Part shown: piece after piece, positions 4,085 through 28,510 of the stretch
Position numbering within the stretch: the stretch's first letter is position 1
How the letters are laid out: every line of letters begins with the position of its first letter
NCBI GenBank assembly: GCA_016926805.1
Contig: JAFGNV010000063.1
Location: 1-64,000, forward strand
Reading direction: 5' to 3'
Source of the DNA: Anaerolineae bacterium
Lineage (GTDB): Bacteria; Chloroflexota; Anaerolineae; 4572-78; J111
Length of the DNA stretch: 64,000 nucleotides
The notes under the pieces: model-generated
What the model was told of the DNA's origin: nothing
The model's input: only the letters and a program-made list of their open reading frames with translations
Databases searched by the model: none
Position numbers and translations under genes: made by a program

Positions 4085-5296
4085 CTACTCGTCTAAACCG
4101 GCCGCCTCGCGCAAGAGGTCGGCCTTATCGGTTTTTTCCCAGGGAGCATCGATGTCGGTGCGGCCAAAGTGACCATAAGCCGCGGTGGCCTGGTAAATCG
4201 GCCGGCGCAAATCGAGGTCGCGAATGATAGCGGCCGGGCGGAGGTCAAAATGGGTTTTGACCAGGCTAATGATCTTTTCATCGCTGATTTTGCCGGTGCC
4301 AAAGGTCTCTACGTTTAGCGACAGCGGGTGAGCCACACCAATAGCGTAACTGACCTGCAACTCGACGCGGTCGGCCAGACCGGCGGCCACAATATTTTTG
4401 GCAATATAGCGGGTCATATAGGCGGCCGAACGGTCCACCTTGGTGGGGTCTTTACCGGAGAACGCGCCGCCGCCGTGCCGGGCCACGCCGCCATACGTGT
4501 CAACAATAATCTTACGCCCGGTCAGCCCGGCATCGCCCATTGGCCCGCCGGTTACAAAACGGCCGGTGGGGTTGACGTAAATTTTGGTCTGGTCGTCAAT
4601 CATGTCGTGAGGTACCACGGGGGTAATCACCTCGCTGATGATGTCCGTCCGAATATCATCCTGGCGAGCATCCGGGCTATGTTGGGTGGAGATAACCACG
4701 GTATCGACTCGCTTGGGCTGGCCGTAGGCATACTCAACCGTGACCTGGCTTTTGCCATCCGGGCGCAGGTATTCAATGGTGCCATTTTTTCGCACTTCGG
4801 CTAACTGGCGGCAGAGCCGGTGGGCCAGGGAGATACTCAGCGGCATAAGTTCTTCCGTTTCGTTGCAGGCAAAACCAATCATCATGCCCTGGTCGCCGGC
4901 GCCGGTATCCAGATGGTCCTGTATCTGACCCGCTTTGGCTTCAAGAGCTTTATCAACGCCCATGGCAATATCGGGGGACTGTTCCTTAATACTGACAATG
5001 ACGCCACAGGTTTCAAAATCAAACCCGTATTTGGCCCGGGTATAACCAATATCGCGGATGGTCTGGCGGGCGATGTCGGCAATGTCAACATAAGTGTTGG
5101 TGGTGATTTCACCCATTACGCAAACCAGGCCGGTGGTGATGGCGGTTTCGCAGGCCACGCGAGCATACGCGTCGTCCCGGTAAATCGCGTCCAGCACGGC
5201 ATCGCTAATTTGATCGCACATTTTGTCGGGATGTCCCTCGGTTACCGACTCGCTGGTGAAGAACAGTTGGGGAGAAGTCATAAATGTTGTCGTCAT
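4085..5296 (-). CDS. metK: S-adenosylmethionine synthetase
   Basis: [25 protein letters not shown] and [19 protein letters not shown]. Confidence 0.97.
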
Positions 5297-5783: not shown

Positions 5784-8082
<2,299 letters not shown>

Positions 8083-8100: not shown

Positions 8101-9171
8101 TTATTTTTTGCCAATTTTAGCCTGCTCCTCTTCCACCGCCCGGCGCAGATTGATGCTGTAGGGGGGGTATACCACGCTATGTTCGGTGACAATGCCGGTG
8201 ACATACTTGTAGGGGGTCACATCAAACGCCGGATTGCCAACTTTGGCGCCTTTGGGAACCACGGGCCGACCAAAAAGAGTCAAATCGGTTACTTCGGCGC
8301 TATCACGCTCTTCAATGGGGATGTCATCGCCGGTGGGGAGAGTCAGGTCAACGGTGGAGGTAGGAACCACCGGGAAAAAGGGAATGCCGTTTTCCCTGGC
8401 CACCACTCCCAACTTGTAGGTGCCTATTTTGTTGGCCACGTCGCCGTTGGCCGCAGTGCGGTCCGATCCCACAAACACAATGTCTACCTGGCCGGTACGC
8501 ATGTAATGTCCGGCGGCATTATCAACAATGAGAGTATAGGGAATGTTGTATTGCTCACATTCCCAGGCCGACAGGCTGGCCCCCTGTAGCCGGGGGCGGG
8601 TTTCGTCTAACAGCACGTGAATATTCTTACCCTGCTCGTTGGCCATCCGGATAACGCCCAAGGCCGTGCCCCAATCAACCGTGGCCAGGGAACCGGTGTT
8701 GCAATGGTGCAAAATGGTATCGCCTTCTTTGACCAAGGCGGCGCCATGGCGGGCCATACGTTGGTTGATTTCCACGTCCTCATCGGCCAGTTGCTGGGCT
8801 TCAACCAGCACGGCCTGGCGAATGTCGTCCACACGGGTGAGGTTTTCATCTTTGGCCGCTCGTAACATTCGCTCGATGCCCCAAAAAAGGTTGACTGCGG
8901 TGGGGCGGGTGGCCCGCAATATTTGGGCAGCGGTGTCCAGATCGTTTAACAGGGCAGCGCGGTTACTGGCATTGCTTTGCCGGGCGGCCAGAGCCATTCC
9001 AAAGGCAGCAGCGGCGCCAATGGCTGGCGCACCCCGGATGTACATCTCACGGATAGACATGGCCACGCCGTGGTAATCCGAAAATTCAGCCACTTCAAAT
9101 ACACCGGGTAACTGGCGCTGGTCGATCATTTTGACCAGGTTACGGCCATAATCCCATTCAACCGTCCGCAT
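8101..9171 (-). CDS. mtnA: S-methyl-5-thioribose-1-phosphate isomerase
   Basis: [54 protein letters not shown]. Confidence 0.95.
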
Positions 9172-9229
9172 TCATCTGTCCTCCTTTGGCGTTATCCAAA
9201 TAACAACACCAGGCTTTGCCTGGACTCCA

Positions 9230-9298
9230 GCTTTGTCTGTAACTAACAAGCATAAAGTGCGAGCGCAATATTATGCGGCGTTATCAATGGACAAAACC
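9230..9298. repeat. Dispersed palindromic repeat D, copy 1
   Basis: GCTTTGTCTGTAACTAACAAGCATAAAGTGCGAGCGC...GCGGCGTTATCAATGGACAAAACC; near-copy at 28397-28464. Confidence 0.8.
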
Positions 9299-9316
9299 TT
9301 TGTAATTGCAAAGGGC

Positions 9317-9357
9317 AAAAAAAACCTCCGCAAAAATCGGCGGAGTTTGCATTCTCC
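9317..9357 (-). terminator. Intrinsic terminator with overlapping antiterminator in mtnA leader
   Basis: On minus strand CTCCGC-cgattttt-GCGGAG then T8 (9317-9345); overlapping GGAG-aatgcaaa-CTCC hairpin (9342-9357). Confidence 0.7.
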
Positions 9358-9439
9358 ATCTCGCCAAATGGATAATTTGGTAAATCTTCCTCAACGGCTC
9401 GGACTATAACATAATGACCGCAACTTTACCCAACCGGCG

Positions 9440-9468
9440 ATGTTATCACAGGCAGGGAGGTTTGTCAA
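9440..9468 (-). promoter_or_regulatory. Sigma70-type promoter TTGACA-N17-TAACAT for the mtnA-metK operon
   Basis: Minus-strand TTGACA (9468-9463), 17-nt spacer, TAACAT (9445-9440). Confidence 0.75.
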
Positions 9469-28344: not shown

Positions 28345-28396
28345 TCACAAAACTGGTAGAATGAAGAGTAAGGAGTTGTTCAAAAACAACTCCCTA

Positions 28397-28464
28397 GCTT
28401 TGTTCGTAAATAACAAGCACAAAGTGCGAGCGCATACCATGCGGCGTTATTTATGGACAAAGCC
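28397..28464. repeat. Dispersed palindromic repeat D, copy 2
   Basis: GCTTTGTTCGTAAATAACAAGCACAAAGTGCGAGCGCATACCATGCGGCGTTATTTATGGACAAAGCC; arms GTAAATAAC/GTTATTTAT. Confidence 0.8.
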
Positions 28465-28510
28465 TAACCATATCCAAAAATAGAGAACCGATTTTTGCGG
28501 CAATAAGACA

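Follow-up and report, generated by a model that had tools for sequence, protein, structure and literature searches.

An attenuator-like leader of a SAM-cycle operon in an Anaerolineae bacterium, probably descended from a SAM-I riboswitch leader

The window, which is the whole stretch of 64,000 nucleotides analysed here, carries a methionine/SAM-cycle operon headed by an attenuator-like leader whose sensor part is absent or unproven. This leader probably derives from a SAM-I riboswitch leader by loss of the aptamer, the terminator having been kept as a fixed attenuator. The conservation of its promoter and terminator, the free drift of the RNA between them and the SAM-I riboswitches found at the same place in sister families point to this reading.

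Promoter, terminator and operon in the window

The features of the leader and the operon, all on the minus strand, are as follows.

9440..9468, minus: sigma-70-type promoter, TTGACA-N17-TAACAT with extended -10 (TG), TGTGATAACAT; found by scan and present in all ten aligned family leaders
9410..9439, minus: first ~30 nt past the -10 with the transcript start, CGCCGGTTGGGTAAAGTTGCGG...; partly conserved in some relatives in the alignment
9346..9409, minus: unconserved part of the spacer with CCAAA/TTTGG, TCCAT/ATGGA and a GGAG pairing with CTCC; similarity to the genus-mate equals that of shuffles
9317..9345, minus: intrinsic terminator CTCCGC-CGATTTTT-GCGGAG-G-TTTTTTTT; operon-specific and conserved in sequence
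9183..9312, minus: dispersed palindromic repeat between terminator and mtnA; further copies in the genome, short gap in the genus-mate
8101..9171, minus: mtnA, S-methyl-5-thioribose-1-phosphate isomerase; TIGR00512, 399 bits against a cut-off of 279
7075..8082, minus: PfkB-family carbohydrate/nucleoside kinase; PF00294
5784..7049, minus: ahcY, adenosylhomocysteinase; TIGR00936, 640 bits
5340..5753, minus: 137-aa protein between ahcY and metK; no Pfam/NCBIfam match
4085..5296, minus: metK, methionine adenosyltransferase; TIGR01034, 597 bits

The preliminary description had read a consensus promoter and a strong intrinsic terminator on the minus strand ahead of an mtnA-pfkB-ahcY-DUF-metK operon. 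Both elements were recovered by the scan and recur in relatives, and the gene order was confirmed by the profile matches. The promoter (9468-9440) agrees with the consensus at 10 of 12 positions. The terminator stem (9345-9326), which lies 94 nt from the -10, is followed by a G and a T8 tail (9324-9317), and its GC-rich hairpin, U tract and conservation are those of an intrinsic terminator. Translation of mtnA starts at 9171 with MRTVE..., as in relatives; in family members without mtnA at that place, pfkB is the first gene of the operon. The leader thus shares with SAM-I riboswitches both its place in front of a methionine/SAM-cycle operon and an expression platform with an intrinsic terminator.

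The 150-nt stretch between the terminator and mtnA is mostly an inserted repeat and lies outside the leader design. Some 113-130 nt of it belong to the dispersed repeat at 9183-9312, which has four copies in the genome (82-85% identity), two of them inside the window (9183-9312 and 28389-28465), and one 24-nt fragment; in the genus-mate (G001) only 35 nt separate the terminator from mtnA.

Conservation of the leader in the family

The window's family (f1) was represented by twelve genomes, in which ten terminator-bearing leaders were readable. These leaders precede mtnA in the window genome (G000), its genus-mate G001, G002, G006 and G011, and pfkB-ahcY in G003, G005, G008, G009 and G010; in the remaining two genomes the region is cut by a contig end (G004) or has the promoter without the terminator (G007). 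In the G007 leader (L159), which precedes pfkB-ahcY, the -10 element is flanked by an 11-bp inverted repeat (CGTCCGCCCTG/CAGGGCGGACG).

All ten leaders share the promoter and have a terminator of the form CTCCG...CGGAG followed by T6-T8, its loop being long in G003 and G009; a strict detector recognised the terminator in eight of them against 0.55 expected from shuffles. The exact terminator pattern occurred once per genome in 7 of the 12 genomes, always at this operon, and the backward control gave zero matches; in the window genome it was found once even when two mismatches were allowed. Pairwise conservation within the family reached z values of 6-16 for the promoter and 4.5-16 for the terminator, and the window genome and its genus-mate gave 11.5 and 8.5, respectively. 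The similarity of the spacers of these two genomes was confined to the first 30 nt, beyond which it equalled that of shuffles (z 0.2, p 0.45). The first ~30 nt of the transcript are themselves mostly missing in G008 and G011. Retention of the terminator beside a freely changing spacer shows that the terminator is under selection. Another genus pair, G006 and G010, does share its spacer (z 19); in both (L008 and L038, respectively) the spacer is taken up by inverted repeats of the GTAGACGGTAGAC type that resemble repeat insertions.

The distance from the -10 to the terminator stem also varies widely, being 94 (G000), 90 (G001), 35 (G002), 110 (G006) and 15 nt (G011) before mtnA and 120 (G003), 111 (G005), 17 (G008), 43 (G009) and 115 nt (G010) before pfkB-ahcY. 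If transcription starts ~7 nt past the -10, only ~8-10 nt of RNA would precede the hairpin in G011 and G008, and spacers of 15-17 nt are too short to accommodate an aptamer, an antiterminator or a leader peptide. The preliminary description had itself held that a lack of conservation in relatives would tell against a metabolite-sensing leader, and this lack is what the alignments gave, the spacer being unconserved past 30 nt and reduced to 15-17 nt in two relatives.

Search for known and new regulatory RNAs in the leader

In the window, no match to an Rfam family reached the threshold of that family, and when the leader region was searched permissively, only chance matches came up. SAM-I (RF00162) was not matched in the leader either at the gathering threshold or at E<=10, and the covariance models of the other Rfam leader classes (SAM-II, SAM-IV, SAH, T-box and others) gave no match there, in agreement with the preliminary description, which had judged the leader unlike SAM-I/IV, SAM-II, SAH and T-box. 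Our own SAM-I model with filters off scored 3.1 bits over the leader (E 0.74) with the outer-stem ends alone aligning, and a relic aptamer was rejected on this non-significant match. A SAM-I-type antiterminator, in which the 3' strand of P1 competes with a terminator arm, was likewise not recognised in the leader, where only UAUCCAU/AUGGAGA resembles P1 ends at the same E value. A cobalamin riboswitch, suspected by eye in the long G003 spacer, had no Rfam match. By inspection, the leaders contain neither a conserved ORF for a leader-peptide attenuator, for which the spacers of 15-17 nt are too short and the longer ones unconserved, nor a G-run start for a reiterative-start (pyrG-like) model.

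The possibility of a new, species-specific riboswitch or attenuator, in which a GGAG/CTCC antiterminator and upstream stems respond to SAM, SAH, MTA or adenosine, was also weighed. Such pairings exist on paper, the operon is fitting and no known class matches. The hairpin scan listed the alternative stem TGGAG-AATGCAAA-CTCCG, and the predicted energies were -3.4 kcal/mol for GGAG/CTCC (-4.9 with flanking bases), -2.7 for CCAAA/TTTGG and -6.2 for TCCAT/ATGGA, against -8.9 for the terminator. When the full-length transcript is folded, the terminator stem wins with a predicted probability of 0.99. The whole leader up to the T tract folds like shuffles (z -0.21), as does the leader without the 3' arm of the terminator (z 0.03). 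A pairing that sequesters the terminator arm was equally strong or stronger in 41% of shuffled spacers, a test of little weight because known SAM-I leaders do not stand out in it either.

In the family alignment few sequences have letters at the proposed alternative stems, where no convincing covariation was seen, and the GGAG/CTCC pairing is not conserved; pair counting on this alignment is weak, since the spacer hardly aligns and even the terminator stem reached only 73%, MAFFT having misplaced it in some rows. A covariation check on the leaders of relatives, as the preliminary description had proposed, thus gave nothing convincing, and its mutually exclusive folds sharing the CTCC strand, which can be drawn, are no better than those of shuffles and are unconserved. 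The conserved, covarying aptamer structure that a novel riboswitch would show was not found among the relatives, two of which have no room for an aptamer, and even the genus-mate's spacer is unlike the window's beyond 30 nt. Finding a promoter and a terminator and drawing competing stems is not sufficient to call a riboswitch, and a new riboswitch in this leader is very improbable. What stands of the metabolite-sensing attenuator described earlier is a promoter-leader-terminator unit with a conserved terminator at the head of a SAM-cycle operon; its aptamer and conserved antiterminator are unsupported.

SAM-I riboswitches at the same operon in relatives

The link to SAM made in the preliminary description was strengthened by evidence that could not be seen in the window, namely the SAM-I riboswitch that sister families of the same order have in this position. 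In family f2 it lies upstream of mtnA in all three genomes tested (86-88 bits), and in family f3 before pfkB-ahcY (87-88 bits). Across the class sample, SAM-I was found in 42 of the 79 readable mtnA upstream regions, and a promoter followed by a terminator without an aptamer in ten (five in f1, three in f4, one in f7 and one in f22); the rest had neither pattern. In five SAM-I leaders before mtnA (L020, L025, L026, L107 and L110), one stem is enlarged by repeat-like inverted sequences of up to ~100 nt.

No SAM-I was found at the f1 operon leaders. It is present elsewhere in 11 of the 12 f1 genomes, including that of the window, where an intact SAM-I riboswitch on contig C117 (L192) stands before a further metK, additional to the one at 4085-5296. 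As the family keeps SAM-I elsewhere, it would have lost only this copy and not the riboswitch class. Ten of twelve SAM-I leaders of the family (L192-L203, e.g. G000:C117:11255-11367 and downstream) have one aptamer followed by two intrinsic terminators ~45 nt apart, the 5' arms of both being complementary to the P1 3' strand (GGAAGATGAGAG); no account of a single SAM-I aptamer with two terminators was found in the open-access literature.

An independent origin was considered as well: a terminator with no relation to SAM-I would have appeared de novo downstream of a strong promoter, the product of the promoter-terminator unit would be a short RNA, and the operon would be fed by read-through. 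The f1 terminator does differ in sequence from the SAM-I terminators of f1, f2 and f3, and its CTCCGCC...GCGGAG has only the CTCCG/CGGAG core in common with those of f2. Against this, it occupies the same place at the same operon as the SAM-I leaders of the sister families, and the RNA body, being unconserved, is unlikely to do a job that depends on its sequence. We regard an independent origin as improbable.

Loss and decay of the aptamer elsewhere in the class

The step proposed for the window's family can be followed in family f22, where the mtnA leaders of G043 (L226) and G078 (L234) have the upstream gene end and the promoter in common, and both carry a terminator before mtnA. Their terminators (GCGCGCTCCTCGGAGCGT-N-T8GC) are identical at all but one base, and the SAM-I aptamer is present in G078 and absent in G043. 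Judged by these sequences, the pair is evidently a natural and clean case of SAM-I aptamer loss in which promoter and terminator stayed in place. A half-decayed SAM-I aptamer before mtnA in G066 (L222, L104; 22 bits, 3' half intact) is a plausible intermediate of such loss. In family f4 (L236, L238, L241) a conserved terminator (AGGTCTCTCTC...GAGAGACCT-CTTTCTTTG) lies 15 nt past the mtnA promoter with no aptamer present, and one mtnA leader of f7 also has a promoter and terminator without an aptamer. Nothing relevant was found in the open-access literature on riboswitch loss, tandem-terminator SAM riboswitches or SAM riboswitches at MTA/SAH genes, nor an account of a series from intact through decaying to lost SAM-I leaders.

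These leaders bear on the main rival explanation, which is also the most interesting open reading: a factor acting in trans or some general signal may still control the terminator, at the hairpin or the transcript start, with no particular spacer needed. Candidate regulators would be an RNA-binding protein, NusG/NusA or an antitermination factor, nucleotide levels or the overall state of elongation. Clear purifying selection on the hairpin while the spacer varies from 15 to 120 nt fits such regulation, as do the promoter-immediate terminators at mtnA in f4, f7 and f22. On the other side, no partner gene or RNA site was identified, G007 manages without the terminator, and most of the initial 30 nt is missing in G008 and G011. 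We consider regulation of this kind rather unlikely, if a serious contender.

Discussion

We favour descent from a SAM-I leader with the terminator acting as a fixed attenuator. A promoter, a SAM-I aptamer and a terminator would have controlled the mtnA/pfkB-ahcY operon in the order's ancestor, and the window's family would have lost the aptamer and retained the other two. RNA polymerase would start at the old promoter, make a leader RNA of 35-150 nt and meet the old terminator, where a fraction of polymerases would be released, so that the operon would live on read-through at a fixed, low level; alternatively, the terminator would be overcome by a signal independent of the leader sequence. 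That the f1 terminator derives from the expression platform of a SAM-I leader is inferred, with f22 and G066 showing the proposed step. So are the release of part of the transcripts in the cell and the role of fixed attenuator; the simplest role that the terminator could have is that of a constant brake, the operon having a good promoter. Three points stand against this explanation. The resemblance of the f1 terminator to the SAM-I terminators of f2 is limited to the CTCCG/CGGAG core; a fixed terminator of no use might just be lost, as happened in G007, yet the other genomes keep it, which hints at regulation; and the partly conserved first 30 nt are left unaccounted for.

More broadly, the SAM-I aptamer may have been lost repeatedly in the class (f1, f22 and probably f4 and f7) and the bare terminator kept for leader-independent regulation, a sensor-free attenuator replacing a riboswitch; this idea we put forward only tentatively, as doubtful on balance. 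Riboswitch loss is rarely seen, and one class here shows intact, decaying, cleanly lost and promoter-terminator-only SAM-I leaders, a series that allows a direct test of the role of a bare terminator after sensor loss.

Among known systems, the trp-, pyr- and T-box-type attenuators resemble the window leader in having a promoter-proximal intrinsic terminator, and differ from it in the conserved antiterminator, leader peptide or sensor, none of which was found in the window leader. SAM-I leaders (RF00162, S box) share with it the kind of promoter, the U-tract terminator just before the gene and, in sister families, the operon and position; the difference lies in the aptamer, the window leader scoring 3.1 bits and intact SAM-I leaders before mtnA 47-117 bits. 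The mtnA leader of G043 represents an independent loss in another family, and its terminator is that of its SAM-I relatives, which for the window is suspected; as in the window, its promoter is followed directly by a terminator with no aptamer in between.
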